Source: Saprospiraceae bacterium
GTDB taxonomy: Bacteria > Bacteroidota > Bacteroidia > Chitinophagales > Saprospiraceae
DNA: 64,000 nucleotides
Direction: 5' to 3'
NCBI GenBank assembly: GCA_020437105.1
Contig: JAGQWR010000052.1
Span: forward strand, 1 to 64,000
Below the pieces are notes generated by a model, which worked only from the letters and a program-made list of their open reading frames with translations, had not been told where the DNA came from and ran no database searches. Shown here piece after piece: positions 16,119-51,204 of the stretch (position 1 is the stretch's first letter; each line of letters opens with the position of its first letter). The translations under genes and the position numbers were made by a program.

Positions 16119-16192
16119 TTGTATTCACTTGCTAATGTGTCTGTCCACTTTGTTGCACCCCTGATAGCTGATGGCATTGTTCATAATAGCGT

Positions 16193-17970: not shown

Positions 17971-17972
17971 AC

Positions 17973-18015
17973 TTGAATTTTTAAGGGTTAATTCTTAATG
18001 AAGTCACAGTTCAAT
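17973..18015. repeat. Intergenic word repeat shared with 10899-10978
   Basis: The words TTGAATTTTTAA, AATTCTTAATGAAG and TCACAG occur here in the same order as at 10899-10978. The 13-base word ATTCTTAATGAAG is identical in both. The repeat sits in the short gap between the DUF4932 gene and arr. Confidence 0.5.
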
Positions 18016-18033
18016 TACACATAAATTCTGACA

Positions 18034-18480: not shown

Positions 18481-18526
18481 TTCTTACCACTCAAAACCAC
18501 TTTCGGTTTGATGTAAACTACATAAT

Positions 18527-20341
18527 ATGAACATATTTATCCGACTTTTTATAGTATGTGTTGTCTTAGCTTCTTGCCAGAATGATAAGAAGAGTATAAA
18601 CGACGAATTACTGAATATAAAAATTCAGGAAATAAACAGCGTTTTTGAGAATGGAAGCATTGAGGAATTCAAAAAAGTTGTTCCAGTTGAACCTGTTCAA
18701 GAACTGGTACAACTTATCATTGAGGAAAACATTCCCAGAAAATCCGGGCAACATAAAATATTAACCCTGGCAGGAGATACTGCGTATGTATTATTGACCG
18801 GAAAATTTGTTTTCGGCAACTCCGGGGATGAAACAAGTTATTCCTCCGATTATTCCGGTGTTTATCTATTTACAAAAACAAACGAAGATTGGGGACTAAC
18901 TGAAAGAATCCAAACAGATGAATTCAATCAAATCCTGCATCATGAGATGGATATAGATGTCCATCCTGGTGAAACTCTTAAAGTAAACGATATTCTTACA
19001 TTAAATGTAAAAAGCCATTTTGGTTTTGTTGCCATATTAAATCATAGTGCTCAGTTTGCCAGTTTATCCCTTAATGATCAGGAAGTGGATTATATTTTAG
19101 ATGGTGGATTGTTGTGGGTAGATGCCAAGGATTCTGATAATCAAAAATTAGCGCTGGAATATACAATCAAAGTTGAACAGGACGATGAGGACCGGAATTC
19201 AAGTTATTTTGGACAAACCTTAGGTCATATCCGCAATCAATATTTCTGGCATCCCTTTTTTGGATTTTCCAGTCCAAACGACAGAGCCAATTTTAATGTT
19301 ACCTGCAAAATCCCGGCTACTTATCAATTGGCAAGCAGTTTGCCTCAAACAGATACCGTGGAGGGTGATTATAGAATAATCAAAGCCATATCACCAAATC
19401 CCACTTTTGGTTTGTCTTTGTACTATGATAAAGAGTGGAACGTACGAGAAATCAAAAAGGGAGACATGCATTTGGTTTTATATACGACTACTGACTTCAG
19501 CCCTTCTGACGATACATTATACCAAGAATTCTCAAATACATTTGACATACTGACAGCAGCATTCGGCAAACCTCAGATCAATTACCTGGGAGTAGTACAG
19601 GATAGATCAAGCGGAGGGAATGGATGGAGAAACAGGAGCAACAATATTATTATCGCGGGCGAAAACGGAAGTTATTTAAAAAGCCTTGACACAAATCCGA
19701 GAGCCGTGTTTGGGCACGAAGTAGCCCATTCCTGGACAAATCCAATAGGCCCTGCAACTAATTTTTTATCGGAGGGTTGGGCAACTTATGCAGAATCCAT
19801 TCTACTCGCCAATGAACCGGACAAAGAAATTGTACCCAATTTCTATGAATCACAGAAAGTGCGTTATCTGGACGGTGGATACAACGGAAGTAGTTCACTT
19901 TGGAATGATTATTCAAATGACGGGGTTTCCTACAGTAAAGGCGTTTGGATATTCTATATGCTCGAACAGTTATTAGGTGAAAAAGATTTTCGGCAAGCCT
20001 TGCGTAATTTTATCCAATCAAAAAATCACACCATTGATTCATTTATAGAACAACTCAACGAGTTTTCTGAAGAAAATATGAAACCCCTACTGGATACCTG
20101 GTTGAAAAGTAATGAAATCCCGGAGTTATCAATAACAGCTCAAGGGAATACTCTTACCGTTGAACAAACAGGAGATGTCTTTATCTTCCCATTAGAAATT
20201 CAGGTAACGGACACGGGTGGGAAAACCTTCCTGAAGAAAGTAAATATCCACGAAAGTAGGCAGGTCATTGATTTAGGAGATTCGGAAATAACTTCATATG
20301 TCATTGATCCTGATAATAAAATATTGGTGATGAAAAAGTAA
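18527..20341 (+). CDS. M1-like gluzincin metallopeptidase, lipoprotein
   Basis: The 604-residue protein has a lipoprotein signal with Cys17 (VVLASCQND). The middle holds the zinc motif H397-E-V-A-H401 followed by SWTNPIGPATNFLSE416GWATYAE, as in M1 peptidases. In classical M1 enzymes 18 residues separate the second His from the zinc-binding Glu; here there are 14, so a loop is shortened. The GAMEN-type exopeptidase motif of aminopeptidases was not seen, though GGNGWRNRSNNIII occupies the expected area. It would be anchored on the outer membrane or in the periplasm. It follows arr by 46 bases. Confidence 0.82.
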   Translation: MNIFIRLFIVCVVLASCQNDKKSINDELLNIKIQEINSVFENGSIEEFKKVVPVEPVQELVQLIIEENIPRKSGQHKILTLAGDTAYVLLTGKFVFGNSGDETSYSSDYSGVYLFTKTNEDWGLTERIQTDEFNQILHHEMDIDVHPGETLKVNDILTLNVKSHFGFVAILNHSAQFASLSLNDQEVDYILDGGLLWVDAKDSDNQKLALEYTIKVEQDDEDRNSSYFGQTLGHIRNQYFWHPFFGFSSPNDRANFNVTCKIPATYQLASSLPQTDTVEGDYRIIKAISPNPTFGLSLYYDKEWNVREIKKGDMHLVLYTTTDFSPSDDTLYQEFSNTFDILTAAFGKPQINYLGVVQDRSSGGNGWRNRSNNIIIAGENGSYLKSLDTNPRAVFGHEVAHSWTNPIGPATNFLSEGWATYAESILLANEPDKEIVPNFYESQKVRYLDGGYNGSSSLWNDYSNDGVSYSKGVWIFYMLEQLLGEKDFRQALRNFIQSKNHTIDSFIEQLNEFSEENMKPLLDTWLKSNEIPELSITAQGNTLTVEQTGDVFIFPLEIQVTDTGGKTFLKKVNIHESRQVIDLGDSEITSYVIDPDNKILVMKK

Positions 20342-20380
20342 AGGAATCCCATTTGATTAACGTTTCTACTGAATGGTGAT

Positions 20381-21151
20381 ATGAAAATAATATTATTGGT
20401 AATATCCTTATTAGTTTCTCCAGCTGCATATTCTCAAGTATTAAATGGAAGTTTTGAGAATGGTTCTGCCTCTGACCTATCCTTCTGGGAATGGACATGC
20501 GGAGCAGATTCATTAAATATCGCACCACCAGGAGGTGGAAACTGGTGCATAAGAGTTTCCGGTGGTAATTTTAAAAGTTGCTTCCCGAGTTATACTTATC
20601 AAAAAATTCCTTTAATCACCAGTGGACAAACGTATCTTCTCTCTGGATGGGCTTACGCCGAATCATCTCCGACGGCAGGAATATATTTTGGAGTAATAAA
20701 TAATGGTATAATAAGCCTTCAAGCCGGCGATACAACATCTTCAGCAGAATGGTCGCAATTAAGTGTAGAATCAGATTTTGCGCTTGCTGCAGGAGATACA
20801 GCAGTGGTTGTTTTATTTAGTGGAACTACCGGTGGCCCGTTGCAGGGATATGGCTATTTTGATTTAATTGACCTTCAACTGGTCACCAGCATAAATTCAA
20901 AGGAGCGAAAACAATCTTTAACTATTTCCCCAAACCCGTTTTCTACGCAAACAACATTTTATTCTAACAATATTTTAAAAGAGGCAACCTTGACCATTTG
21001 TAATTCATATGGACAAACAATAAAACAAGTAAAAAATATTTCAGGACAGATAATCTCTTTCAATCGTGACAATTTACCAAGCGGACTATACCTTATACAG
21101 TTAGCGGAAGATGGCATAATAACAACTGGTAAAATAATAATCGTGGACTGA
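20381..21151 (+). CDS. T9SS-exported protein with carbohydrate-binding-like domain
   Basis: The 256-residue protein has a signal peptide (residues 1-18). The N-terminal part begins LNGSFENGSASDLSFWEWTCG and includes YTYQKIPLITSGQTYLLSGWAYAES, a pattern typical of jelly-roll, carbohydrate-binding-like modules (NGSFENG..). A type A sorting domain begins about residue 180 with ISPNPFSTQTTFYSN, then ICNSYGQTIKQ and LPSGLYLIQLAEDG. It should be exported by T9SS. The ligand is not known. It lies 39 bases after the M1-like gene. Confidence 0.8.
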   Translation: MKIILLVISLLVSPAAYSQVLNGSFENGSASDLSFWEWTCGADSLNIAPPGGGNWCIRVSGGNFKSCFPSYTYQKIPLITSGQTYLLSGWAYAESSPTAGIYFGVINNGIISLQAGDTTSSAEWSQLSVESDFALAAGDTAVVVLFSGTTGGPLQGYGYFDLIDLQLVTSINSKERKQSLTISPNPFSTQTTFYSNNILKEATLTICNSYGQTIKQVKNISGQIISFNRDNLPSGLYLIQLAEDGIITTGKIIIVD

Positions 21152-21283
21152 AAAGCAGTACAGGCACCAACAATAGCTCGAACCTGGGATTTGAATATCC
21201 CCTGCCCCTACCCTATGCAAATTGTTCGTCTGTATCCTGGCCGTAAGGCAGAAAGACGCCGCTTTACCAAGATCTAAATCATT

Positions 21284-22486
21284 ATGTTTGAAAAATTTAT
21301 AGCAGCTAAAAAGATTGGTGGAATCAATTGTCTAATATGGAAAAATGGGCAAATAGAATTTCAAAAAAGTTACGGTTATAAAAACTTGGAAACGCGGGAA
21401 CTAATGACTATTGATAGTCTTTTTAGGATTTCTTCCATGACAAAACCAATTACTTCGGTACTTGCCATGATGCTGTATGAAGAAAAGAAATTTAGTTTGA
21501 ATGACCCAATAACTAACTGGTTCCCGCAATTTGATAGTATGAAGGTCCTGAAAAACCAGCCTGCTGAATATGAAGACGCCAAACAGCATATTACTTTACT
21601 CGATTTGTTAACCCACAGAGCAGGTTTTACTTATAGTGAATTTCAAAAAGGAAAACTAAGAACCGATTATTTAGCTCTTGGGGGAGACATTGATTCTGAA
21701 CTTACGAACGAACAATGGATAAATGAGTTGGCTAATTTGCCATTAATAAGTCAGCCTGGTGCATTATTCAATTATGGCAGGTCAACTGATTTACTGGGAA
21801 TTTTAATTTCAACCATCGAAGGAAAACCTCTTGGAGCGGTAATGGAAGAAAAAATTTTTACTCCTCTGGGAATGACAAATACTTTTTTTGAGGTCCCAAA
21901 TAACAAAAAAGACAAGTGCGTTTCAAATTTTGGTTATGATAGTCTGGGTGAATTAATGACTCTTGAAACAGTTCCGCTAAACATGGCTTTCAAAGAGCGA
22001 CCCCATCATTTAGAATATCAATCGGGTGGACAGGGACTTTGGTCTAGCATAGAAGACTATCTGAAGTTTGCTAAAATTTTTGTAGAAAATGGTAGCTCAA
22101 ACGGTATGCAGGTTTTAAAAAAAGATACGATTGACTTAATGTGTTCAAATAAATTGACAGCTTCACAGAGAACACAATCACAATTAATGGGTTCTCCGAT
22201 CTTTAAAGATGATTATGGTTTCGGATTAGGACTGGCTATGGTCTGTAAAGAAAATAAATTTGGATCAATTCCGTGTGCCGGGTCCGTTGGTTCCGTAGGT
22301 TGGCCTGGTGCCTATGGAGGTTGGTGGTCAGCAGACCCTGCAAAAAATTCCATTTCCATTTTTTTGACACATAGTATGACAGCACCAAGTCAACTTGAGC
22401 AAGGTATTGGATTTGAGTTATATGAGGCTATTGATATTTTTTCAAATTATAGCAATGAAATAAATAGTGCACGATACCCGTTGTGA
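21284..22486 (+). CDS. Class C beta-lactamase-like serine hydrolase
   Basis: The 400-residue protein has the S51-x-x-K54 motif in FRISSMTKPITSVLAMMLYE. The second motif region is FNYGRSTDLLGILISTIEGKPLG, and the third may be the Gly-rich stretch with HxG-like context near the C-terminus (GGWWSADPAKNSISIFLTH). This pattern fits serine hydrolases of the beta-lactamase/EstB/DD-peptidase superfamily (PF00144). There is no signal peptide with the annotated ATG, so the enzyme appears cytosolic and an esterase role is more likely than antibiotic resistance. The substrate cannot be told. Confidence 0.86.
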   Translation: MFEKFIAAKKIGGINCLIWKNGQIEFQKSYGYKNLETRELMTIDSLFRISSMTKPITSVLAMMLYEEKKFSLNDPITNWFPQFDSMKVLKNQPAEYEDAKQHITLLDLLTHRAGFTYSEFQKGKLRTDYLALGGDIDSELTNEQWINELANLPLISQPGALFNYGRSTDLLGILISTIEGKPLGAVMEEKIFTPLGMTNTFFEVPNNKKDKCVSNFGYDSLGELMTLETVPLNMAFKERPHHLEYQSGGQGLWSSIEDYLKFAKIFVENGSSNGMQVLKKDTIDLMCSNKLTASQRTQSQLMGSPIFKDDYGFGLGLAMVCKENKFGSIPCAGSVGSVGWPGAYGGWWSADPAKNSISIFLTHSMTAPSQLEQGIGFELYEAIDIFSNYSNEINSARYPL

Positions 22487-22499
22487 TGAAATTTCCGCT

Positions 22500-23132
22500 T
22501 TAATTAACTAAAACAGGTATATAAAACCCTTTTATCTTACTATCGTAGGCAACCACTCCAGGTTGAAATTGAAGCGTTCCGGTTGAATTAAACCTACGGG
22601 AAATATGTGTTGGAATCGTAATAGCCCGAGGTATTTCCAGGGTTTGGATCATCTCCATTGCCGAACCTTCATAGGACATTCGCATAAATAATTTTCCATT
22701 TTCGTCTTCAACTAACCTTTGTTTAAAGGTAAATGTCGAAACAGATCGGCCTGAATTATCTTTCATGAAATTACTGAAATCTCTCCCGCCTTTTTTCGGC
22801 CGCTTTTGATCTTCCAGATACTTTTCAGGAGACATCCTTTTTTCAAAATTACTTGCAGTATTAATTTGATTGACGACTAAACCCGGGCGTCCGGTCTCCC
22901 AGGCGTTGTTCATTTTAAATTCAATAAACATGCCTTTTCCATCCACTTTATCCTTCAGGGAAAATTCAAGACCTGAGTAATCCATCGTATTAATAGAAAA
23001 ATCGAAACGTACTTCGTCACTTATCTCAGCACATATAGAAGGGATAGCAGGAAGTGGATCTCGCACAAATCCCATCCAGGCTAAATTGAGTAGAATGAAA
23101 GCGGCAATAAAAATTAGAATTCTCTTCATCAA
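22500..23132 (-). CDS. Membrane-anchored or secreted protein of unknown function
   Basis: The 210-residue protein starts MMKRILIFIAAFILLNLAWMGFV, a signal peptide or anchor. The rest is a mixed strand region with no motif I recognise (EVRFDFSINTMDYSGLEFSLKDK, MEMIQTLEIPRAITIPTHISRR). It is convergent with the serine hydrolase gene, with 13 bases between stops. A second Met follows the first directly. Its AT-rich base composition fits the accessory block. Function unknown. Confidence 0.65.
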   Translation of the reverse strand: MMKRILIFIAAFILLNLAWMGFVRDPLPAIPSICAEISDEVRFDFSINTMDYSGLEFSLKDKVDGKGMFIEFKMNNAWETGRPGLVVNQINTASNFEKRMSPEKYLEDQKRPKKGGRDFSNFMKDNSGRSVSTFTFKQRLVEDENGKLFMRMSYEGSAMEMIQTLEIPRAITIPTHISRRFNSTGTLQFQPGVVAYDSKIKGFYIPVLVN

Positions 23133-23250
23133 ATTTTATTTTGAAATGCTATCCAAACGATAATTACGATTCCCAGGGTTAAGATACGTAATGTTTGCAA
23201 TCTCTTCCAGACTATCCTGTAACCAGATCAATATCCTTTCCAGGGGCAGG

Positions 23251-23550
23251 ATGTAAAAAAACTAACTCACTAACTCACTAACGTTCGAATTCTTAATGCT
23301 TAATTTTGAATTTTGAATTAGGTTCTAACTCACAAACTCACTGAAAAACTAACCCACTGGATCACAGGACCACAGGACCACTAACTACCGAATTCTTAAT
23401 GCTTAATTTTGAATTTTGAATTAGGTTCTAACCCACTAACCCACTGAAAAACTAACCCACTAACCCACTAACCCACTGGACCACTGGACCACTGGACTAC
23501 TGGATCACAGGACCACAGGATCACCCCCGATAGCTATCGGGGCACAGGAT
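23251..23550. repeat. Intergenic word-repeat island with palindrome
   Basis: The 485-base gap before pruA is almost wholly made of repeated words. CACTAAC/CTCACTAAC runs occur at both ends of two copies of a 73-base module (23286-23358 and 23389-23461; module text starts CGAATTCTTAATGCTTAATT). Runs of CACTGGACCACTGG and CACAGGACCACAGG follow. A perfect 18-bp palindrome, CCCCGATAGCTATCGGGG (23525-23542), interrupts the CACAGGATCA words. No coding potential is apparent. Confidence 0.8.
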
Positions 23551-23552
23551 CA

Positions 23553-23596
23553 CTAAAAAAAAGGATACCCGAATCAATATCCGAATATCCTTTTCC
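23553..23596 (-). terminator. Intrinsic terminator after pruA
   Basis: On the minus strand the stem AAAAGGATATTCGG / CGGGTATCCTTTT is followed by a run of eight T. It lies about 20 bases past the pruA stop. Confidence 0.8.
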
Positions 23597-23617
23597 AATC
23601 AAGTAGCTTTTCTAAAT

Positions 23618-25249
23618 CTATGACTCCAAAAATGGATAACGGTAATCCGTTGGAGAAACGAATGTTTCTTTAATTGTCCGCGGACTGATCCATCTGTATA
23701 AATTCAGTACAGAGCCGGCTTTGTCATTTGTGCCAGAGGCCCGAGCTCCGCCGAAAGGCTGCTGCCCTACTACTGCACCTGTAGGTTTGTCGTTAATGTA
23801 GAAGTTGCCCGCTGCATGACGCAGACGATTGGTAGCCAAATCAACTGCTGCCCGGTCTTTGCTGAAGATCGAACCAGTAAGCGCATAAGGCGAGGTCTGA
23901 TCTACCAGGGTAAGCGTTTCTTCAAACTCCGCATCCGGGTAAACGTAGATGGTTAATACCGGGCCGAATATTTCCTCTACCATGGTTCGGTAATCTGGTT
24001 TAGATGCCAGGATTACAGTTGGTTCGATAAAGTACCCGATTGATTTATCATATCCGCCTCCGGCAATGATTTCTGCGTCGGCATCTTTACGGACCTGAGC
24101 AATGTAGCCACTGATCTTATCGAAAGCACGCTCATCGATGACCGCATTGATGAAATTACCAAAATCTTCCGGCGATCCCATTTTAAAGGATTCCAGATCT
24201 GCAAGCATGTATTCTTTTACGGCTGGCCAAAGGCTTTCCGGAATATAAGCCCGGGAGGCCGCAGAACATTTTTGTCCCTGAAACTCAAAAGCACCACGCA
24301 CGAGTGCGGTAGCCACTTCTTTTGCACCCGATGAGGGGTGTACCATGACAAAATCCTTACCACCTGTTTCACCAACGATCCGCGGATAAGTTTTGTACTT
24401 GGAGATATTTAATCCGATGGTTTTCCAGAGCGACTGAAATACACCGGTGCTACCTGTAAAGTGTAGTCCGGCAAAATCCGGATGATTAAAAATGATGTCA
24501 CCAGCCATTGGTCCGTCCACATAAACCAGATTGATTACCCCGTCTGGTAAGCCGGCAGCTTCCAACACATCCATAATGACAGCAGCAGAGTAAATCTGCG
24601 TTTCTGCTGGTTTCCACACAACAGTATTGCCCAACATGGCAGGTGCTCCAGGCAGGTTGCCGGCGATGGAAGTAAAGTTGAATGGGGTAATCGCAAAAAT
24701 AAAGCCTTCTAATGGACGATGCTCCGTGCGGTTCCAGGTATTCTCGGGGCTGATGAGTGGTTGTTCCGCATAAATTTGCGCCATGAAGTAGGCGTTAAAC
24801 CGGAAAAAATCACACAACTCAGCTACTGCATCAATCTCGGCCTGAAAAACATTCTTAGACTGCGCCAGCATGGTAGCGGCGTTCATTTTGGCCCGGTACG
24901 GACCAGCCAACAGATCTGCAGCTTTCAGGAAGATAGAAGCACGTTCCTGCCAGGGCATGTTTTCCCATGCGGGTTTGGCAGCGAGTGCTGCTTCGATCGC
25001 CTGATTAACATGTTCCGCTCCGCCTTTGCTAAATGATCCCAGCGAATGGGCAATTTCATGTGGTGGAAACATCTCGACCCGGTCTTTGGTATAGACCTTT
25101 TCCCCATTGATATACATAGGGATATCCATCTTGCTATTTTTCAGTTCCTGCAACATGGCTACTGTAGCAGTACGTTCGGGAGAACCTGGACGGTACCCCA
25201 AAACGGGCTCATTTTTAGGTACAGGGACCTGGAAAAAGGCATTTGACAT
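23618..25249 (-). CDS. pruA: L-glutamate gamma-semialdehyde (1-pyrroline-5-carboxylate) dehydrogenase
   Basis: The 543-residue enzyme oxidises glutamate semialdehyde from proline to glutamate with NAD. The start is ATG at 25249 (MSNAFFQVPVPKNEPVLGYRPGSPER), where family similarity begins. A TTG start 26 codons upstream is possible but lies beyond the promoter box at 25305-25312. Seen motifs are the NAD-binding PFNFTSIAGNLPGAPAMLGN, the catalytic Glu in VGETGGKDFVMVHPS, and the catalytic Cys in FQGQKCSAASRAY. The C-terminal ARASGTNDKAGS is standard. No PutA proline dehydrogenase is nearby; in Bacteroidota the two are usually separate. Confidence 0.96.
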   Translation of the reverse strand: MSNAFFQVPVPKNEPVLGYRPGSPERTATVAMLQELKNSKMDIPMYINGEKVYTKDRVEMFPPHEIAHSLGSFSKGGAEHVNQAIEAALAAKPAWENMPWQERASIFLKAADLLAGPYRAKMNAATMLAQSKNVFQAEIDAVAELCDFFRFNAYFMAQIYAEQPLISPENTWNRTEHRPLEGFIFAITPFNFTSIAGNLPGAPAMLGNTVVWKPAETQIYSAAVIMDVLEAAGLPDGVINLVYVDGPMAGDIIFNHPDFAGLHFTGSTGVFQSLWKTIGLNISKYKTYPRIVGETGGKDFVMVHPSSGAKEVATALVRGAFEFQGQKCSAASRAYIPESLWPAVKEYMLADLESFKMGSPEDFGNFINAVIDERAFDKISGYIAQVRKDADAEIIAGGGYDKSIGYFIEPTVILASKPDYRTMVEEIFGPVLTIYVYPDAEFEETLTLVDQTSPYALTGSIFSKDRAAVDLATNRLRHAAGNFYINDKPTGAVVGQQPFGGARASGTNDKAGSVLNLYRWISPRTIKETFVSPTDYRYPFLES

Positions 25250-37817: not shown

Positions 37818-40800
37818 CTATCCACCAGCCTTATCTTTTTCTTCCTGAAGCGCCTTCAATTGTTTCTCCAGTGCTTCAATTTCCTTTTGCACATCCAGTA
37901 CTTCCTGTTGTTTTGCAGCCAGGTCCCGTTCGGCTTTAGCTTGCTGTTCGCGACTTAGGCGAATCTGTTCAGCGGTCTCCTCTTTCACCTGGGTAATCTG
38001 GATAGTCGCTTGCTGTCGGGCTTCATAAACAGATTCTGATGCTTTGCTTTTGGCAGCATTTATTTCCTCCTGCGCGGCTTTACGTGCGGATTCAACATCA
38101 GCAGCGAGGGCTGCTTTTTTATCTGTGTTTTCCTTTTGGATACGGCCAAGTTCTTCTGTAGTGCGTTGCTGGGCTGCTAAGATTTCTTCCCGGCTTTTTG
38201 TTTGGGCTTCAGCAACATCTTTGGCATAGGCTGCCTGTTGCGCACTTGCGTCTTCCCGGGCTGCTGCAATGACTGCAGCTACCTCCTGGCGTGTAGCAGA
38301 CAACTCAGCGGAAATGCGGGCTTTTTCAGCATTTGCATTTTCCCGGGCCTGGGCCACAGCCTCGGCTGCTTCGCGTTGCACTGCTGCAACTTCCGCTGCT
38401 GCACCTTGTTGCACCTGACTTATTTCAGAAGCTGCTTTTTTGCGCGCTTCAATTACCGACACGGATGCAGCTTCTTTTTCGCGGGCGGCATCTTGCCGTA
38501 TTTGTTGCATTTCTGCTGCAGTTGCCTGCTGAATGGCTGCTATTTCAGAAGCTGCTTTTTCACGAGATTCTGCTACTGAACCAGCCAGTTTTTGGCGTTC
38601 CAGTGCGCTGGATTCCTGGGCTTGCTGAACGGCAAGGGCTTGTTCCTGGCGCACGGCAGAAATCTCCAGAGCGGCTGCTTGTTTGGCTTCGGCAACAGAT
38701 TTGGCAGAGGCTTGCTGTGCCAATGCTGCTTCCTCTTTGGATTTAGCAATTTCGGCAGCTGCCAGTTGGCGGGATGCCGAGATTTCCTGAGCAGCCCGTT
38801 CGCGAGCAGCGGCAACTTCTTCGGCCGTTGCTTCTTTCATTTCACTTTCCCTGGCCTTTGCTGCTTCTACAGCTGCTGCGGCTTCTGCCTGGATGGCTTT
38901 AATACGTTCTTTGGACTTAGCCTCAGCATCAGATACTTCTGCAGCAAATTGCTGGCGGGCATTATCCGCATTTGATTTGGCGGACACAGCTTTTTCGGCG
39001 GCTTCCTGCTGTGCTTTTGTAATTTCACCTGAAGCACGCTCCCTTGCCGAAGAAACCTCCAGTGCAGCAGCTTGTTTAGCCTGTTCTTCCTGCAAACGCG
39101 CTGCTTCGATAGCCGCCTGGACTTCAGCCTGGACACGGGCTATTTCAGTTTCCGCCCGCTTGCGAGCCTCTACTACTTCCTGCTGCAGTTTTACCTGTTC
39201 CTCCTCTGATCGCTTCCGGGCATCAGCTACTTTGGCTGCCTCATCCACTTCAATTTGTTTAATTGTTTCAGCTGCACGCTGGCGGGCACTTTGAACCTCC
39301 TGGGCTGCCTCAGACTTTTCTGAATCAGCTGATTCCCGTGCGGCGGCGACCTCGGCAGCTAGTGCTGCCTGCGTTTTATCCAATTCGATTTGTGCCTGCG
39401 ATTTTTCGGATGCCACCGTTTGGCGTACTCGTCCAATTTCTTCGCTGGCCTGCTTTTTAGTTTCGGCTATTTCCAGGGCGGCGGCTTCTTTTTGCCGGGC
39501 GATGCTCTCCCGAATCTCTGCCATTTCAGAAGCATTTGCTTGCTGCATCAGGGCTCGTTCCTCTGCAAATCTGCGTCGATCTTCGGCCAATTGAAGTGCC
39601 ATATTTTCTTTTTCTAAAACGGCATTTTCCCGGATACGGGAAATTTCTTCGGCCATTTCTTCCTGGGTACGGAGAATTTCTTCGGCGGCAGTTTCTTTGG
39701 TTGAAACGACTTCACCAGTTGTACGTTCCCGTTCCACCTTCGCATCCTCCCGGGCTTTGGCAATCATATCTGACGTTTCCTGGCGGATACGCAGGATTTC
39801 CTGGGCACTATTTTCACGGGCATTGGCAATTTCATCCGAGTATTCGAGTTTTGCCAGTTCCAGTTTGTCTTTTACAACTTTTATCTCTGCGGCGGCGCGT
39901 TCGCGAGCTGCTGCTACTTCTTCCGCTGCCTTTAGTTTTGCTTCCTGCACTTCGGCAGCTGCACGCTGTTGAGCTTCCACCACACTTAGATTAATGCGTT
40001 CCACTTCTGTAGAAGCCTTTTCTCTGGCGGCAGCCACGGCCTCAGCAACTTCCTGTTGGGCCGCATCAATTTCGGTTTGGGAGCGTTGGCGGGCAGTTAA
40101 GACCTCGTTGGCATATTCCTGTTTTTTGGCGTTTGCCTGTTCTCTGGCCTGGGCAACTTCCTCTTGAATTTGTTTTTTAACGGCCTCAGCATTCGCTTTT
40201 TCAGCCTGAATTTCAGCCCGTACCTTTGCTTTGGTTTGCTCGAGTTGTTTGTTCAGATCCTGCAGTTCCGCATCGGGACCAGCAGAACCGGTTGCTGTAG
40301 GACGGGTGGAGCTAATAGGATCTTCGCCACCGCTTGCTGTGCCGGAAGGTAAATCTACCCCAACCAATACCACATCAGCCACCTGTGAGGGGTCAAGGTT
40401 TAGACTAAAACAGTAAGCCATCTGCATAAAAGCAGTTTGGCGGCTGGAATTCACCGTAAACTTCCGCATTTGATTGCTGATGTTGTTTACGATATAAATA
40501 GTGGAGATATTAGACGTTTTGAACCAGTTGATAGCAGCCATGTCTAACTGCAGCTTATTCCGATGTTCCGGAGTACCAGACTCATTCCGCATTTCCCCAA
40601 TTTCAAAAAAGCGATATCGTTTACGAACCAGGTTATTGTCCATAAATATCATCTCATCGCCTTGATTCAACTCAACTCCTCCTTTCGAATAGACCTTTGC
40701 CTGAATTCCTTTATTATCGCTCAGAAACTCAATACTATAGGTATAGGTACCACGCACCACAATCGTTTGAGATTCTGTACGGACCACATGGGTGCCTTCA

Positions 40801-40901
40801 ATCACCCGGTCTTCTGCTATCTGACCAGCACAATCTTGTGCACGAGACAGGCTTGAAATAAATAAGAAGGGAAGTAGAAATGCGTAAAAAGTCACTTTCA
40901 T
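37818..40901 (-). CDS. Exported 1027-residue protein with very long Ala/Glu-rich coiled coil
   Basis: A signal peptide (MKVTFYAFLLPFLFISSLSRAQ) precedes a globular N-terminal domain of about 180 residues (for example TIVVRGTYTYSIEFLSDNKGIQAKVYSKGG, FTVNSSRQTAFMQMAYCFSLNLDPSQVADVVLVGVDLPSG). From about residue 225 to the end the sequence is an uninterrupted helix of heptad type, with roughly 11-residue and 22-residue words such as AAAEIAxAREKAxAE, VAAARERAAAEI and IQQATAAEMQQIRQ. Residues 400-490 have the most charged variants. The helix would be about 120 nm long if extended. The globular part resembles nothing I can name. It could be a periplasmic spacer or tether. Neighbours give no function. 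Confidence 0.85.
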   Translation of the reverse strand: MKVTFYAFLLPFLFISSLSRAQDCAGQIAEDRVIEGTHVVRTESQTIVVRGTYTYSIEFLSDNKGIQAKVYSKGGVELNQGDEMIFMDNNLVRKRYRFFEIGEMRNESGTPEHRNKLQLDMAAINWFKTSNISTIYIVNNISNQMRKFTVNSSRQTAFMQMAYCFSLNLDPSQVADVVLVGVDLPSGTASGGEDPISSTRPTATGSAGPDAELQDLNKQLEQTKAKVRAEIQAEKANAEAVKKQIQEEVAQAREQANAKKQEYANEVLTARQRSQTEIDAAQQEVAEAVAAAREKASTEVERINLSVVEAQQRAAAEVQEAKLKAAEEVAAARERAAAEIKVVKDKLELAKLEYSDEIANARENSAQEILRIRQETSDMIAKAREDAKVERERTTGEVVSTKETAAEEILRTQEEMAEEISRIRENAVLEKENMALQLAEDRRRFAEERALMQQANASEMAEIRESIARQKEAAALEIAETKKQASEEIGRVRQTVASEKSQAQIELDKTQAALAAEVAAARESADSEKSEAAQEVQSARQRAAETIKQIEVDEAAKVADARKRSEEEQVKLQQEVVEARKRAETEIARVQAEVQAAIEAARLQEEQAKQAAALEVSSARERASGEITKAQQEAAEKAVSAKSNADNARQQFAAEVSDAEAKSKERIKAIQAEAAAAVEAAKARESEMKEATAEEVAAARERAAQEISASRQLAAAEIAKSKEEAALAQQASAKSVAEAKQAAALEISAVRQEQALAVQQAQESSALERQKLAGSVAESREKAASEIAAIQQATAAEMQQIRQDAAREKEAASVSVIEARKKAASEISQVQQGAAAEVAAVQREAAEAVAQARENANAEKARISAELSATRQEVAAVIAAAREDASAQQAAYAKDVAEAQTKSREEILAAQQRTTEELGRIQKENTDKKAALAADVESARKAAQEEINAAKSKASESVYEARQQATIQITQVKEETAEQIRLSREQQAKAERDLAAKQQEVLDVQKEIEALEKQLKALQEEKDKAGG

Positions 40902-45777: not shown

Positions 45778-47118
45778 TCAATCTTTAGCAAAGCTTACTT
45801 CCACCTCTTTATCATCCACCAAGAGACAAAGCAAGCCGGCGATAAACAGTGAAACACCTCCAATGATCAGCGCGTAAATAGAGGCATTTCCAAAAAAGGA
45901 TTTAAGCATAAAACCCAGGATACCGGCAGCAATAATCTGAGGGATCACAATAAAAAAATTGAAGACCCCCATATAATAGCCCATCTTATTAGCGGGCAGG
46001 ATACTGGACAACATCGCATAAGGCATGGATAGAATACTCGCCCAGGCAATTCCAACACCTACCATAGAAAGTAGCAACATGGTCGGATCCGAAATAAAAT
46101 AAACCGAAATCAGCCCGAAGCCTCCGCAAAACAAGGCGACAAGATGTGTCATTCGGCGGCTTATCCGCTTGGCAAGGACCGGAAGCATAAAGGCTACCAG
46201 CGCAGCTATACCATTATAGACGGCAAAACAAATGCCGACCCAATCTGCTCCTTCATTATAAAGAGGAGAAGTGGTATCTGTTGTGCCATATACATGACTT
46301 GTCAATGCCGAGGTAGTATAAATCCACATGGCAAATAAGGCAAACCAGGAAAAAAACTGCACCACTGAAAGCTGAACCATGGTTTTTGGCATTTTGAATA
46401 TGCCCAAAAATGATTCTTGAATGCCTGTCCAAATACCGATCGCATCGTTTTCCTGTTTTAATTTTTCCAGGTCATCCGGTGGATATTCAGTAGTCTTAAA
46501 GACGGTCCACATGACGGCACAGAAATAAGCAATACCACCCAAATAAAAGGACCATTTAACCGAATCGGGGATGCCACCTTCAGGTGCTATATTACTTACC
46601 CCAAACCAATTCGTGAAAATCCAGGGGAGCGCTGAAGCAATTACGGCTCCTGTACCGATAAAAAAGCTCTGCATGGCAAAACCACTGGTACGTTGTTTAT
46701 CAGAAAGCATATCGCCCACAAATGCCCGAAATGGTTCCATGCTGATATTTATGGAAGCATCCATTAGCCAGAGCATAATAACCGCCATCCACAGCGCTGT
46801 GGAATTAGGCATAAGGAACAGCGCAATGGTAGCGAGAATAGCTCCTACTGCAAAGAAAGGTCGTCTCCTACCCCATTTTTTATGCCAGGTCCGGTCGCTG
46901 TAATAACCGATTATGGGTTGCACCAGCAAGCCGGTCACCGGAGCGGCCAACCAGAGGATTGGTAATTCATCCTGGGAAGCACCAAGGGTTTCAAAGATCC
47001 GGCTAACATTGGCATTTTGAAGGGCAAAGCCAAATTGGATCCCCAAAAAACCAAAACTCATATTCCATATCTGCCAGAAGGATAAATGGGGTTTTTCGGA
47101 ACCGATGGAAACTTGCAT
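45778..47118 (-). CDS. MFS transporter, SLC45/sugar-symporter-like
   Basis: The 446-residue protein has about 12 hydrophobic segments. The N-terminus (LSFWQIWNMSFGFLGIQFGFALQNANVSRIFETLG) and the loop YYSDRTWHKKWGRRRPFFAVGA are typical of the SLC45/GPH-like MFS transporters found beside maltose and sucrose genes in Bacteroidota. The loop carries the RWGRRRP variant of the MFS motif A. It is likely to import a di- or oligosaccharide with protons. No glycosidase is adjacent here, so the substrate is not inferred from context. Confidence 0.88.
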   Translation of the reverse strand: MQVSIGSEKPHLSFWQIWNMSFGFLGIQFGFALQNANVSRIFETLGASQDELPILWLAAPVTGLLVQPIIGYYSDRTWHKKWGRRRPFFAVGAILATIALFLMPNSTALWMAVIMLWLMDASINISMEPFRAFVGDMLSDKQRTSGFAMQSFFIGTGAVIASALPWIFTNWFGVSNIAPEGGIPDSVKWSFYLGGIAYFCAVMWTVFKTTEYPPDDLEKLKQENDAIGIWTGIQESFLGIFKMPKTMVQLSVVQFFSWFALFAMWIYTTSALTSHVYGTTDTTSPLYNEGADWVGICFAVYNGIAALVAFMLPVLAKRISRRMTHLVALFCGGFGLISVYFISDPTMLLLSMVGVGIAWASILSMPYAMLSSILPANKMGYYMGVFNFFIVIPQIIAAGILGFMLKSFFGNASIYALIIGGVSLFIAGLLCLLVDDKEVEVSFAKD

Positions 47119-47146
47119 AACTACTACTGGTTAAAGGTTACTGAGT

Positions 47147-47307
47147 AGACTTGTCCAACTGGGCATGAATGAGCGAAAGCGAAGCAAATTTTATTTTGAA
47201 CAAGGCAAAAAACGTAGACGATGCCTTAGCATCGGCGAGGCTTTTTAACGAAGTGCAAGATAAAATTTGTCGCTTGTAGCCATTTGAGGCTCCAGTTGTA
47301 CAAGTCT
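47147..47307. repeat. 161-bp imperfect palindrome
   Basis: Terminal arms AGACTTGTCCAACTGG (47147-47162) and CCAGTTGTACAAGTCT (47292-47307) pair at 15 of 16 positions. Inner arms also pair: AAGCGAAGCAAATTTTAT near 47176 with the complement near 47262-47280. The centre contains GATGCC-TTAGCATCGGCGAGG. The whole fills the gap between the MFS gene and the DUF4956 gene. It looks like a mobile miniature element or a transcribed long hairpin. Confidence 0.75.
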
Positions 47308-47324
47308 ATTATAAATCATTGACT

Positions 47325-48014
47325 TTAAATCGTGCTCGGAGGTGAATTTTCGTCCTCATCAAAAAACAAATTAACCATTCGAACGCCCTCTAAACTACGG
47401 AGTTTTCGGATGAGTTCTGCCGGATTGGTTCTTCTTTTAAGCTTGATGTGAAAAAATACATCCAACATCCCGTCGCCCCTGTTTCGGATGTTTATCATTT
47501 TTCGCCACCGGCTGTGAGCGGATATAACTTTATCAATTTCGCCATCAGCCTGAAATTCGCCGGCATATTCTATTTGCAACAAATGCCGTTGGGCAAGTCG
47601 TTGGCCGAAGCCAGAGCTAAGCAGTAACCAAATAACCAGGCTAACTAACAAGGTACTTACAATGGCTACCCCCGTTAAGCCTGTGCCGGCAGCCAGGCCA
47701 ATGGACAAGGCAAAAAAGATAAAGACAATATCCAGGGTATCCCGTACAGCGGTACGAAATCGAATAATAGACATAGCTCCAACCAAGCCAAATGCACGTG
47801 CCAGATTATTACCAATAACCAACATAACCACCGAAGTAATCATAGTTAGGAGTACCAGAGCATTCACGAAAGTGTAAGAATAACTTGGTCCTTTATAGGT
47901 AACACGGTAAACCAGGGAAATAAATAAGCCACACGCCATGGACACCAGGAGATGGACAATTAAATCCATTACACCTGGTCTGAAAACATCTAATTGTTGA
48001 AAATCTTCGAACAT
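47325..48014 (-). CDS. DUF4956 membrane protein
   Basis: The 229-residue protein has about four hydrophobic segments (VHLLVSMACGLFISLVYRV, FVNALVLLTMITSVVMLVIG, GTGLTGVAIVSTLLVSLVIWLLL) and the DUF4956 signature ARAFGLVGAMSIIRFRTAVRDTLDIVFIFFALSIGLAAG. The C-terminal 90 residues form a small soluble domain (FFHIKLKRRTNPAELIRKLRSLEGVRMVNLFFDED). It lies 8 bases from the VTC-domain gene, its usual neighbour. The activity is not established; pairing with VTC suggests a membrane partner for polyphosphate or another polymer. Confidence 0.9.
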   Translation of the reverse strand: MFEDFQQLDVFRPGVMDLIVHLLVSMACGLFISLVYRVTYKGPSYSYTFVNALVLLTMITSVVMLVIGNNLARAFGLVGAMSIIRFRTAVRDTLDIVFIFFALSIGLAAGTGLTGVAIVSTLLVSLVIWLLLSSGFGQRLAQRHLLQIEYAGEFQADGEIDKVISAHSRWRKMINIRNRGDGMLDVFFHIKLKRRTNPAELIRKLRSLEGVRMVNLFFDEDENSPPSTI

Positions 48015-48022
48015 AAACGGGC

Positions 48023-48778
48023 TTAGTTACTCCGCTCGGGAGAGAATCGACTAAAAATCAGGGAATCAAAACGTGAATAGGGCTTTACCTCTTCCAGGGC
48101 ATCAATAGACATACAGTATTTTGAAGCGGAAGTCCTTTTAATATTCATTGAATGCACTAATTCGGCCAGCCAACCGGGCATGTAGTGATTAAATTTTATT
48201 TCTAAGATAAAATGGCCGTGCAACGCAGTAACCGCCCCTTCTTCGCGATACAATTCATCGAGTGAAGGGTACGGTAAGGCCCGTAAATTTTTATCAAAGG
48301 TAATACGAAGCTTATTCTTCATATCAGCAGATGGCGCCTCGAATGCTTCCCGCTCATAAATCACGGTTACAACGGGTTTCATCTGGCGACCATAAACATG
48401 GTATAAAAAACGATTTAGATCATCGCTTTTCCCAGCCAACTGGCCATTTTCAAACACCGAGTCCATTTCCTTGAAGGCAATCATGGTTCGATGTTTGTAT
48501 ATTGGATGTTCAAACTTCTTTTTTATTTCAAAGAATATATCTGAATCGGGGCTTTCCAAATTATACCCACGAATCCGAACCTTATTGCGGTTTTTTACCC
48601 CTGCAATTTTAGTGGTATAACATTCAAACCTGGGAGTGTCAAAATAGATACTACGAACGGTATATTCCCCGCCATTCCTTTTGGCAAAGGAGTCATACTT
48701 GATAAAGGGAAGCAGGATACTTCTGACCTCATCCAGGCGACTTACAGGAATAATATATTTTAGTTCATATCGTAACAT
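48023..48778 (-). CDS. VTC domain (polyphosphate polymerase-like) protein
   Basis: The 251-residue protein belongs to the VTC domain family (PF09359). It starts LRYELKYIIPVSRLDEVRSILLPFI and has the basic tunnel residues in YTVRSIYFDTP, NKVRIRGYNL and KKKFEHPIYKHRTMIAFKE, and EIKFNHYMPGWL. In yeast, VTC4 makes polyphosphate from ATP; the bacterial proteins are less studied. It is flanked by the HlyD-like gene (9 bases) and DUF4956 (8 bases), so the three are surely one operon. Confidence 0.92.
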   Translation of the reverse strand: MLRYELKYIIPVSRLDEVRSILLPFIKYDSFAKRNGGEYTVRSIYFDTPRFECYTTKIAGVKNRNKVRIRGYNLESPDSDIFFEIKKKFEHPIYKHRTMIAFKEMDSVFENGQLAGKSDDLNRFLYHVYGRQMKPVVTVIYEREAFEAPSADMKNKLRITFDKNLRALPYPSLDELYREEGAVTALHGHFILEIKFNHYMPGWLAELVHSMNIKRTSASKYCMSIDALEEVKPYSRFDSLIFSRFSPERSN

Positions 48779-48787
48779 CCGGTCAGT

Positions 48788-49855
48788 TTACCACCTTAGC
48801 CGAAAGGCCTTGGTTAAATAATCCCAAATTCTGAGTTTACCTACCTCAATACGACAGGGAATTGGTTTACCATCGATCCACTTATTGCGTAGTCCGGGCA
48901 CTTGAAGGCGAACCCACTGAACCTGCTCATTATTTAGAATGGAAATGGGACCATATTGGGTCCATTCTTTAACAGTATAAGCCTGTTTTAGTATTCCCTC
49001 CAAAAGCACCAATTGAAAACTATCCTGCAGCATATCCAAATCCCGGGATCGCACCGGAAAATGAACAATTGAGGCGGTAGTATCCTCTACCCACAAATGA
49101 TCTACACCTTCCGGTGAAAGTTCTCTGCGCCAAACACCTTCAATCGGACATTGGATAGAATACAGAGACTCTTTGCCTTCCAGGAAACTGGAGGTTGTTT
49201 CAAGGGCAGCGATTCGGGTATTGATCAGGTCAATCTGCTGCGATTTCTCGCCGGTACGTTCTTCCACCAAAAGTCTTTTAGCTACCTCAACCCGTAAAAC
49301 AGCTTCTGCTTTGGCATTTTCGGTTTGTTCAAATTCAGAAAGAGAAATCAATCCTTCTTCCAGCAAGGCTTGCTGCCGAATCAATTGCTTCTCCAACAGT
49401 GTTAAGGTTTGCTCTGCCAAACGCACCTCTTCTTCCATGCGCTGAATGGTCTCCGGTTTTTCTCCGATTAGATCTACATTGAGCAATGCTTTTTGCTCCT
49501 TTAGTTCAACCCCTACATCAATCAGCTGTTCTGACAAGCGATTACTCTCAATCTTCAAAACCTGAAAATTAGCCGGAATCCAATTCTCCGGAAGGGAGTC
49601 AAGCTGATATTCCATCCGGACAACATCTCCCTGATCAAACTGATATAGTTGCTGATCTTTGATGCCGTCCAGCTTATAATCGTACCATTTACTATGCAGC
49701 GAACCATTCGGATATTGCACCAACTCCCAGGCCTGAACGGGCATCACCTGCACAGCCGTTTGGAAGCCATAGGGCACTTCCCACGGACCAAGTAATAAGA
49801 CAGCCACTACTATACTAACAACACTAAGAGGTATATACTTCACAATTTTTCCCAA
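48788..49855 (-). CDS. HlyD-like periplasmic adaptor protein
   Basis: The 355-residue protein has an N-terminal membrane anchor (YIPLSVVSIVVAVLLLGPW). It then has a long helical hairpin with heptads (ANFQVLKIESNRLSEQLIDVGVELKEQKALLN ... LAEQTLTLLEKQLIRQQALLEEGLISLSEFEQTENAKAEAVLRVEVAKRLLVEE) between beta segments (LYSIQCPIEGVWRRELSPEG). This is the build of HlyD/RND-type adaptors, although the usual lipoyl GxxVxxxxV is poorly kept. It is the first gene of the operon with VTC and DUF4956. No transporter ATPase or outer-membrane channel is adjacent. Confidence 0.8.
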   Translation of the reverse strand: MGKIVKYIPLSVVSIVVAVLLLGPWEVPYGFQTAVQVMPVQAWELVQYPNGSLHSKWYDYKLDGIKDQQLYQFDQGDVVRMEYQLDSLPENWIPANFQVLKIESNRLSEQLIDVGVELKEQKALLNVDLIGEKPETIQRMEEEVRLAEQTLTLLEKQLIRQQALLEEGLISLSEFEQTENAKAEAVLRVEVAKRLLVEERTGEKSQQIDLINTRIAALETTSSFLEGKESLYSIQCPIEGVWRRELSPEGVDHLWVEDTTASIVHFPVRSRDLDMLQDSFQLVLLEGILKQAYTVKEWTQYGPISILNNEQVQWVRLQVPGLRNKWIDGKPIPCRIEVGKLRIWDYLTKAFRLRW

Positions 49856-49971
49856 CGGTTTAACCGAATCACGTCGCTAAAATTGGCAGATATTTGCCAA
49901 GGTATTATAGGATGGGCGGCAAAATAAAAAAATTGAACTACATTCATCGGATTTAATTATTCAAGGCCTTT

Positions 49972-51204
49972 ATGCGACAAACAAATATTTCAACCAAAAT
50001 ACTCATTCGGCTATGTATTGGCCTTCTTATATGTTTCCAAACAGGAAGCATATCTGCTCAGGCAGGATGTACGGATCAACAAGCTACGAATTTCGACCCG
50101 TTAGCGACTCTAAATGATGGAAGCTGTACCTATCCGCCAACGACTTATACACTCGACCTGGTAGCAGACCTCTCTGAAACACTGGTAGAAACTTCCGGTT
50201 TAGCGTTTTTAGATGGCTCCCTGTGGACACATAATGATGGTGGAAATCCGGATGTAATTTATCGGATTGATACCCTTAACGGGGATATCCTCCAATCAGT
50301 AATCATAGCCACTGCTTTTAACCAGGACTGGGAGGATATGGCTCAGGATGATCAATATTTATACGTAGGAGATTTTGGAAACAATTCTGGCGACCGGCAG
50401 GATCTGGTCATATATCGAATCCTGCGTTCGGATTTGGGATCAAATGTGGTGAACGCTGATGTCATTCAATTCAGCTATGAAGACCAGACAACTTTCAATT
50501 CACTTCCCTATCAGACCAATTTTGATTGTGAGGCCTTTTTTGTAAAGGATGACAGCCTGCACCTGTTTACAAAACACTGGGTTGACTATAAAACAAAACA
50601 TTATGTCCTGCCGGCAGAACCGGGCACCCAAGTGGCTGCTTTACGAGATTCACTCGATGTGCAACTGTTAATCACCGGTGCCGACATGGGCGAAAACGGG
50701 GAAGTCATCTTGCTGGGATGGAATCCGGTAACCGGAAACTCTGCCTTTTGGCTTTTATTCGATTATCCGAATCAAAACATATTCAAAGGCAATAAAAGGC
50801 GGATCAACCTGGGCTACGCCAGCCTAAACAGTCAACCGGAAGGCATTAGCTTTTCCAGTGCCTATGAAGGCTTTATTAGTAGTGAAAACTTCCTGAGCTA
50901 TCCGCAAAGACTTCTGAGGTTTTCGATAGAATCATGGGTCAGCAATATTGTATCGACCCATTCTACTCCGCCATCTTTACACCTCCAAATTGCTCCGAAT
51001 CCATCAGAAAACACCCTTTGCCTGCAAGGTTTAGAACAGCACTCGGACATTCAAATCAGTGTACTTGACACACAGGGAAAACTGGTTTATGGTCCCACAA
51101 AAATAAAGGGCGCCTGTGTTAATACCGGTCTTCAATCGGGTTTATATTTTGTCCGTTTCCGGGAAGGAAATGCAAATCAAACCTTGAAATGGATCTGTAA
51201 ATAA
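49972..51204 (+). CDS. T9SS-exported propeller-like protein with GCTDxxAxN module
   Basis: The 410-residue protein has a signal peptide (to about residue 31). A short module GCTDQQATNFDPLATLNDGSCTYP, common at the N-termini of Bacteroidota surface proteins, follows. The main domain has SMP-30/PQQ-like phrases (LAFLDGSLWTHNDGGNPDVIYRIDTLNGDIL, WEDMAQDDQYLYVGDFGNNSGDRQDLVIYRI, AEGISFS-type strand PEGISFSSAYEG). A type A sorting domain ends it (IAPNPSENTLCLQGL ... LDTQGKLVYG ... LQSGLYFVRFREG). It is exported by T9SS. Function unknown. Confidence 0.83.
   Translation: MRQTNISTKILIRLCIGLLICFQTGSISAQAGCTDQQATNFDPLATLNDGSCTYPPTTYTLDLVADLSETLVETSGLAFLDGSLWTHNDGGNPDVIYRIDTLNGDILQSVIIATAFNQDWEDMAQDDQYLYVGDFGNNSGDRQDLVIYRILRSDLGSNVVNADVIQFSYEDQTTFNSLPYQTNFDCEAFFVKDDSLHLFTKHWVDYKTKHYVLPAEPGTQVAALRDSLDVQLLITGADMGENGEVILLGWNPVTGNSAFWLLFDYPNQNIFKGNKRRINLGYASLNSQPEGISFSSAYEGFISSENFLSYPQRLLRFSIESWVSNIVSTHSTPPSLHLQIAPNPSENTLCLQGLEQHSDIQISVLDTQGKLVYGPTKIKGACVNTGLQSGLYFVRFREGNANQTLKWICK

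Follow-up and report, generated by a model that had tools for sequence, protein, structure and literature searches.

A conserved adaptor-VTC-DUF4956 gene set in a Saprospiraceae bacterium as a candidate system for synthesis and export of a phosphate polymer

We examined a 64,000-nucleotide stretch of DNA from a Saprospiraceae bacterium (GenBank assembly GCA_020437105.1, contig JAGQWR010000052.1, positions 1 to 64,000; hereafter the window) and within it three closely spaced genes, which encode a periplasmic adaptor, a VTC-domain protein and a membrane protein of the DUF4956 family (hereafter the triad). Comparison of loci from many genomes indicates that adaptor-VTC-DUF4956 is a conserved unit. 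We tentatively propose, with somewhat less than even confidence, that the triad is an envelope-spanning machine, which would synthesize polyphosphate or a similar phosphate polymer and export it. The draft genome that contains the window comprises 5.27 Mb, and the window lies on its contig C38.

Gene organization and conservation of the triad

According to the open reading frame (ORF) calls, the triad is transcribed on the minus strand, from 49855 to 47325, in the order adaptor, VTC, DUF4956. An earlier interpretation of the same DNA, made from the letters alone (the sequence-only reading), had placed an operon of these three genes at 47325-49855 with a spacing of 8-9 bases, and did not state the strand. 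We found three ORFs at exactly this span, with gaps of 9 bp between adaptor and VTC and 8 bp between VTC and DUF4956. The adaptor may start at the TTG at 49855 (355 aa) or at the in-frame GTG at 49843 (351 aa); the adaptor ORF of a sister species starts at the equivalent of the GTG.

The adaptor protein was searched in 60 genomes (the own genome and its relatives) and matched in nine of them, seven of which, the own genome included, carried VTC and DUF4956 directly after the adaptor in the same order. In another (G012), the adaptor followed a CotH gene, and a VTC fragment was located at the end of another contig. We then consider two samples of loci, the first chosen by the type-A DUF4956 signature (GNNLARAFGLVGAMSIIRFRTAV) and the second by the VTC profile of the same type (type A being the order found in the window), so that the adaptor frequencies given below are valid for those groups. 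For the first sample (L056-L135), the GTDB genome collection was scanned with seven DUF4956 proteins and the best 80 of 342 relatives were kept. VTC adjoined DUF4956 in 76/80 of these loci, and the complete order adaptor-VTC-DUF4956 was present in 73/80. The triad is not a chance association, given that 73 of the 80 loci retrieved with DUF4956 only show this order; the sequence-only reading had proposed to check such neighbourhoods for adaptors, and the adaptor indeed belonged to the same gene set there. Three loci had VTC and no adaptor, namely L073 (the G019 record) as well as L084 and L124, in which VTC starts at the contig start. Four had no VTC, and in two of them (L083 and L111) DUF4956 lies near a contig start.

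Among the best 80 of 342, the named record closest to the window in DUF4956 (81% identical) was a metagenome-assembled genome (MAG) titled 'Bacteroidetes bacterium', followed by Saprospiraceae MAGs. Nearly all named records were MAGs, with Sporocytophaga, Lentimicrobium and Melioribacteraceae among them. The record titles of triad loci included Bacteroidota, Ignavibacteria/Melioribacteraceae, Calditrichia, KSB1, Krumholzibacteriota and Chlorobiota.

Of 395 genomes sampled from the phylum, 39 matched a profile of triad VTC proteins at E <=1e-30, with 42 matches in all. The second sample (L136-L175) comprised 40 loci from these VTC profile matches, selected by likeness to the triad VTC proteins, and all 40 carried an adaptor. 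By script, the type-A order was assigned to 25, and in 12 another HlyD-like protein came after VTC-DUF4956 (type B). The remaining loci were settled by eye: the adaptor ORF was in two pieces in L159 and masked by an over-long frame in L160, and L166 was of type B with a gap of 371 bp between VTC and DUF4956. The order VTC-DUF4956-adaptor was thus present in 13/13 loci of the type-B clade. All three type-B adaptors that were scanned matched Pfam HlyD_3, and the adaptors of the two types are distantly related (hhalign 99%, E 4e-18). In the 105 type-A rows with all three genes (101 distinct, since four loci of the second sample are identical to loci of the first), the gap was <=30 bp between adaptor and VTC in 92 and between VTC and DUF4956 in 95. 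A 787-aa VTC frame in G192 was rejected as a fusion, as it was an open-frame extension across a separate adaptor ORF.

As controls we took the ordinary VTC genes of the 60 genomes. These gave 40 regions, from which L214 (identical to the triad type of G019) was excluded; with the two ordinary VTC genes of the own genome (L025, L026) the total came to 41. A fragment (G012:C144) and a gene (G035:C9) among the ordinary VTC matches were left out. No adaptor of type A or B was found <=300 bp from VTC or from an adjacent DUF4956 in any of the 41 (0/41), with profiles able to detect unrelated adaptors and with one side partly unseen for the eight genes that lie <=1.3 kb from the end of the retrieved stretch. 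A tree of 162 VTC proteins placed type A in one group, with a value of 91 in the Shimodaira-Hasegawa-like approximate likelihood ratio test (SH-aLRT), except for three adaptor-less rows inside it, i.e. L073 and L214, which are one locus, and L124, which is cut by its contig. Type B was one side of a branch (SH-aLRT 99), and so was the adaptor-less rest (71). Because the tree is unrooted, it does not fix the number of adaptor recruitments; we do not claim an independent double recruitment, as types A and B are remotely alike.

In five relatives (L190, L191, L199, L201, L202), the gene directly after VTC-DUF4956 encodes an outer-membrane barrel of the DUF2490 type, as judged by eye in L191 and by Pfam in the other four; several of these loci also have a small lipoprotein-like gene upstream. 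Judged by its gene content, this is another envelope-facing arrangement, without an adaptor.

VTC protein

The window VTC protein matched the Pfam VTC family (PF09359) with E 7.3e-44 and 150.5 bits (cut-off 23) over positions 2-234 of the 235 of the profile, and it is predicted to be a polyphosphate polymerase. We aligned it to yeast Vtc4 and mapped R264, R266 and E426 together with further residues which we take to form the active site. The pairs were K200=K7, R264=R68, R266=R70, K281=K86, K294=K95, Y359=Y141, R361=R143, R373=R158, E426=E193, S457=S219 and K458=K220. The residue which we take to be K455 of Vtc4 was apparently not conserved, as read by eye from the alignment. The mapped residues were invariant in the 105 type-A rows, except that S457 was retained in 102/105 and replaced by P in three. 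The position of Vtc4 R253 is K57 in the window protein, and this column held K in 105/105 type-A rows, T in 13/13 type-B rows and N (26), H (15) or K (3) in adaptor-less ones. The sequence-only reading would have been refuted by a loss of the basic catalytic residues; they are present in the window protein as well as in the 105 type-A rows, and the conserved residues rule out a degenerate VTC. As reported in the part of PMC9911596 consulted, R264, R266 and E426 are residues whose replacement inactivates or impairs yeast VTC. The own genome also encodes one PPK1-type kinase; as this kinase is retained, a further polymerase with dedicated envelope parts suggests that its product goes elsewhere.

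Adaptor protein and outer-membrane channel

We are confident that the window protein 48788-49855 has the predicted fold of a periplasmic adaptor of the HlyD/membrane fusion protein kind. Its AlphaFold model has a mean predicted local distance difference test (pLDDT) score of 92.1 and comprises an N-terminal membrane helix (7-22), beta domains and a helical hairpin of two segments (105-231), formed by the helix pairs 105-130/204-231 and 134-166/172-201, with a tip near 167-171. The best Foldseek matches were MacA (E 9.3e-12), EmrA (E 9.4e-10) and AcrA, with MexA also among the best structural matches. Superposition on EmrA gave a VIA Z of 11.9 and a root-mean-square deviation (rmsd) of 7.3 over 299 residues, and the adaptor profile also matched MacA and EmrA chains. 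A weak NCBIfam HlyD-family match (3.7e-8) was far under the cut-off of the model.

Adaptor hairpins that dock on TolC carry the tip motif RxxxLxxxxxxS, which is present in the window adaptor. Among 54 type-A proteins, the strict motif was complete in 19, while the R160 column held R in 47 and the L164 column L or M in 52. A TolC-family gene (Pfam OEP) was located 3' of the triad in L023 (34 bp), L115 (156 bp) and L119 (3 bp), and elsewhere in the own genome OEP was matched 15 times, in several cases twice within one protein. A TolC-family channel is thus a candidate exit route, with which the adaptor may dock.

HlyD-family adaptors normally pair with ATP-binding cassette (ABC), resistance-nodulation-division (RND) or major facilitator superfamily (MFS) pumps. 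The adaptor could then serve a separate efflux pump and be merely co-transcribed with VTC-DUF4956, as might be suggested by an MFS gene (45778-47118) on the same strand 206 bp downstream of the window triad and by an ABC-ATPase-like family (identified by eye) no more than a few genes away from the triad in 7/80 loci. However, the MFS gene had no homologue in any other locus examined and was rejected as a partner; the ABC-like genes occupied mixed positions on both strands, and an ABC or RND partner was rejected as no family recurs at a fixed place. In addition, the three commonest neighbour families are not pumps, and the association with an adaptor occurs in two arrangements with distantly related adaptors. 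We therefore regard a separate pump as highly improbable. In the window, neither an ABC ATPase nor an outer-membrane channel gene adjoins the triad, just as the sequence-only reading had noted, and no conserved ABC, RND or MFS gene was found beside it in the loci compared. For the lack of a conserved adjoining pump gene, we did not class the triad as a tripartite efflux or type I secretion system.

DUF4956 protein

The window DUF4956 protein matched Pfam PF16316 with E 6.8e-15 and 55.6 bits (cut-off 30.6). Its AlphaFold model consists of five helices and a C-terminal ACT-like domain, for which numerous ferredoxin-like folds were matched, with rmsd 2.3-2.6 over 80-85 residues and Z values reaching 10.0; Foldseek also listed the C-terminal domain of MgtC, and there was a sub-threshold NCBIfam match to MgtC/SapB. 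R85 and R87 were invariant in 56/56 proteins and were also present in the two ordinary DUF4956 proteins aligned. We infer a channel role for this protein.

The triphosphate-tunnel superfamily, to which VTC domains belong, includes hydrolases. It could be argued that VTC is such a hydrolase or senses nucleotides, and that it drives or controls the passage of something unrelated (e.g. a lipid or a peptide) out through DUF4956 and the adaptor, in particular since the ACT-like domain is of a kind often seen in ligand sensing and given the sub-threshold MgtC match. However, Pfam lists VTC and not CYTH for the window protein, and K458 is retained in 105/105 type-A rows along with the nearly invariant S457, which makes this explanation improbable.

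Genes in the neighbourhood of the triad

Genes around the triad were compared with profiles that were built from these same loci and drift at weak scores. In the first sample, the commonest neighbour families were CotH, a nucleotidyltransferase-like family and a soluble protein of ~950 aa (the latter two by eye), found in 18, 14 and 13 of 80 loci; the last two lie downstream and are taken for a neighbouring operon. As the CotH profile caught sorting tails, we counted only matches with E <1e-28 and >400 aa, with Pfam as a check.

Adaptor loci contained 23 CotH-domain genes on the same strand and <=700 bp from the core genes, including L019, which has an adaptor and no VTC beside it. By Pfam, CotH was present in 23/23, a lamin tail domain (LTD) in 22, a type IX sorting tail in 16 and FlgD_ig in four. 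Adaptor-less VTC loci contained 16 such genes, with CotH in 13, a beta-helix in 13, and neither a sorting tail nor LTD in any (0 and 0); they had an N-terminal hydrophobic segment, as seen by eye. Our own tail profile gave 20/23 vs 0/16. The two groups are phylogenetically clustered, and the pattern is broken by three adaptor-less loci: in L186 and L202, a tailed CotH lies ~2.2 and ~1.5 kb away from VTC, and L184 has two CotH genes at 1.8 and 3.6 kb that have no membrane anchor or tail.

These two kinds of CotH gene at two kinds of VTC locus may indicate that the triad supplies a phosphate donor, such as short polyphosphate or another high-energy phosphate, across both membranes to extracellular CotH-domain kinases, and not a surface polymer. 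Outside the cell, such kinases would presumably lack ATP, and the own genome encodes, elsewhere, a protein with CotH, LTD and sorting tail (L221). CotH, polyphosphate polymerase and DUF4956 genes are also grouped near Gram-positive pel clusters, according to the part of PMC7112168 consulted. However, a CotH gene is that near in about one fifth of the adaptor loci only (22, with L019 excluded, of ~114 distinct loci of types A and B), the use of polyphosphate as a donor by CotH is undocumented in the sources consulted, and the clustering and exceptions described above apply here as well. We consider this donor role rather unlikely. It is doubtful, too, that exported polyphosphate feeds secreted CotH-domain kinases, so that extracellular phosphorylation would run on the cell's own exported energy and phosphate donor; such an exported donor would explain the adaptor at loci with type IX-secreted CotH and its absence from loci with membrane-anchored CotH.

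The gene divergent from the adaptor in the window is a probable accessory gene of the triad (Table 1). Counting the window, 11 distinct loci encode homologues of its product beside the triad or close to it, with a Pfam sorting tail in 5/11. In nine other distinct loci, this place was taken by an SdiA-regulated/phytase-like beta-propeller, whose family is similar to that of the window propeller (hhalign 92.5%, E 4.8e-7) and resembles the solved protein YjiK (E 4.5e-20). The intergenic region between the divergent genes is presumed to be regulatory for both. In L120, L123, L128, L155 and other loci, the gene for the SdiA-regulated/phytase-like propeller is directly 3' of DUF4956, in some with an overlap (L120 and L106 were Pfam-scanned); in MAGs of Ignavibacteria and Calditrichia, this propeller is a candidate for a fourth component of the set.

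At one ordinary VTC locus of the own genome (C85, L025), the clusters DUF4956-CotH and DUF4956-CYTH-CotH-VTC are ~3.5 kb apart. With the CYTH-domain protein (15027-15926), whose Pfam score just exceeds the cut-off, VTC has another tunnel-type enzyme next to it.

Table 1. Features of the triad locus, with positions in the window
Feature	Position	Strand	Basis
Periplasmic adaptor (type A), 355 aa from TTG	48788..49855	minus	ORF and predicted fold
VTC-domain (triphosphate-tunnel) predicted polyphosphate polymerase, 251 aa	48023..48778	minus	Pfam VTC, Vtc4 alignment, conservation
DUF4956 membrane protein, 229 aa	47325..48014	minus	Pfam; predicted helices and ACT-like domain
Divergent probable accessory gene, beta-propeller-like with type IX sorting tail	49972..51204	plus	Homologues near the triad elsewhere
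116-bp intergenic region between the divergent adaptor and beta-propeller genes	49856..49971	none	

Proposed mechanism

We observed the gene content and order, the active-site residues, the fold predicted for the adaptor, and a CotH neighbour that differs between the two kinds of VTC locus; from these we infer the identity of the polymer and the direction of its transport. In the proposed machine, cytosolic VTC would move phosphate from ATP onto a growing chain, which would directly enter a channel made of several copies of DUF4956, as from Vtc4 into the VTC membrane channel in yeast. Polymerisation itself would give the push, so that an ABC ATPase would not be needed. The adaptor, anchored in the inner membrane, would span the periplasm, and the tip of its hairpin would dock on a TolC-family channel that is usually encoded elsewhere. 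The product would surface near type IX-secreted proteins of the CotH-domain or beta-propeller kind. In yeast, according to the part of PMC9911596 consulted, Vtc4 makes polyphosphate on the cytosolic side and presumably delivers it to a basic channel in the membrane, and mutations of basic residues of the channel abolished the vacuolar polyphosphate store. Three observations are in line with the model: no pump gene is conserved beside the triad, the neighbours include predicted extracellular proteins, and loci whose adjacent CotH has a predicted membrane anchor carry no adaptor.

The hand-over of an anionic polymer across the envelope, which the sequence-only reading had suggested, fits the data found, and neither of the findings that it had named as contrary was made. 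That reading had left the exit route and the energy source open, and for these we can name candidates only: the TolC-family channel, which adjoins the triad in three loci and is encoded elsewhere in the own genome, and coupled polymerisation, by analogy with what is proposed for yeast VTC (in the part of PMC9911596 consulted).

Several findings weigh against the export machine. With regard to the adaptor, the window protein had no Pfam match, HlyD families included, HlyD_3 was matched by just 10/54 type-A adaptors, the strict tip motif was present in just 19/54, and a TolC-type gene adjoined the triad in three loci only. The model of DUF4956 is of moderate confidence (pLDDT 79.6), and its membrane part had no informative match in the PDB, as the listed matches were all to the ACT-like domain and the membrane part was barely probed; we therefore do not call its fold new. 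The PPK1-type kinase of the own genome means that VTC is not needed for ordinary intracellular polyphosphate, and the product of a bacterial VTC may be other than polyphosphate. The gene set is not without exceptions: adaptor and VTC are ~9 kb apart on one contig in G019, and L092 and L105 have a complete DUF4956 with no VTC found, being true exceptions as far as seen. Neither the window ORFs nor Pfam nor the neighbour profiles revealed a CotH gene beside the window triad, and the secreted-type CotH proteins of the own genome, the one with LTD and tail among them, are not linked to it. The ABC-ATPase-like genes near some triads, described above, belong here too.

The rarity of the TolC-type linkage and of the strict tip motif would also suit an adaptor that acts as a structural partner, i.e. 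one that holds VTC-DUF4956 under a site of the outer membrane or cell wall, with the product staying in the periplasm and no outer-membrane channel involved. The VTC-DUF4956-DUF2490 sets without an adaptor likewise suggest that delivery need not use TolC. However, the fold and hairpin of the adaptor match those of TolC-linked adaptors, and many CotH and 5/11 propeller neighbours are type IX-tailed and thus predicted to be extracellular, so that we find a purely structural role unlikely.

If true, the proposed export machine would provide a dedicated, polymerisation-driven route for polyphosphate or a related polymer through both Gram-negative membranes with no ABC pump, and the widespread uncharacterised bacterial VTC-DUF4956 pair would gain a transport direction and a testable partner. 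It also bears on the phosphate supply to secreted CotH-domain kinases outside the cell.

Other features of the window

A repetitive element (47146-47308) directly 3' of the DUF4956 stop has 17-bp terminal inverted repeats that are 94% complementary. It had 35 matches listed in the own genome, the window copy and many partial ones included, with four others near full length at 90-99% identity; from its sequence, it looks like a miniature inverted-repeat transposable element or a similar non-coding mobile element. On the minus strand, 37818-40901 encodes a protein of 1027 aa, which apparently carries a signal peptide and whose very long, coiled-coil-like body is rich in Ala and Glu; the gene adjoins pyrB- and pyrR-like genes (by eye) and coincides with a strong AT skew at 38-40 kb. 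The GC content falls to 0.37-0.40 in 10000-24000, vs ~0.45 around it, and this is possibly an acquired region. Short tandem octamer arrays (CTAACCCA, CCACTGGA) are located at 23286-23524 inside a 103-bp repeat, between long ORFs. Promoter-like matches numbered 5 vs 6.3 in shuffles and terminator-like ones 8 vs 3.3, and neither was counted as evidence.

Comparison with known systems

Our literature search, which covered publications other than preprints and was partly by title, found no published link of a VTC domain with HlyD and, among the titles listed, none that linked polyphosphate to an adaptor of this kind and none on bacterial export of polyphosphate. DUF4956 was rarely named in the literature searched, and for CotH with a lamin tail domain the search gave one cellulosome paper, by title only.

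The triad resembles the eukaryotic VTC complex (yeast Vtc1/Vtc3/Vtc4) in the tunnel-enzyme family, as judged by sequence, in the active-site residues and in a membrane partner that possibly carries the polymer; for the yeast complex, the part of PMC9911596 consulted takes synthesis to be coupled to translocation, as a working model. Unlike in yeast, the bacterial VTC is a separate single-domain protein without SPX, its partner is DUF4956 and not a Vtc1-type domain, and the triad has an extra component, the adaptor, for a second membrane. With the MacA, EmrA and AcrA adaptors of tripartite TolC pumps, the window adaptor shares the predicted fold, the N-terminal anchor, the hairpin and, in part, the tip pattern. 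It differs from them in being encoded with VTC and DUF4956, with no ABC, RND or MFS gene, and its identity among the Foldseek matches listed is 8-14%.

The VTC-DUF4956-DUF2490 sets, from other genera of the same family and order, are alike in having VTC beside DUF4956 and a predicted outer-membrane barrel next to them; in contrast to the triad, they have the DUF2490 barrel instead of an adaptor, and their VTC lies outside the type-A group of the tree. The ordinary DUF4956-CYTH-CotH-VTC set of the own genome has a CotH with an N-terminal hydrophobic segment, unlike the adaptor loci. A VTC-CotH locus has been described in Clostridium perfringens, with neighbouring proteins of 222-226 aa called tubulin/FtsZ in the part of PMC2879425 consulted; by size and place, we would guess that these are DUF4956 proteins. 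The CotH-polyphosphate polymerase-DUF4956 sets near Gram-positive pel clusters (PMC7112168, in the part consulted) likewise have VTC and DUF4956 together, and some adaptor loci have CotH beside them. No adaptor is named for the gene sets in the consulted parts of PMC7112168 and PMC2879425, unlike in the triad. Thus, as far as the consulted part of PMC7112168 goes, sets of CotH, polyphosphate polymerase and DUF4956 near pel clusters were known, and we regard the variant with an adaptor as new.

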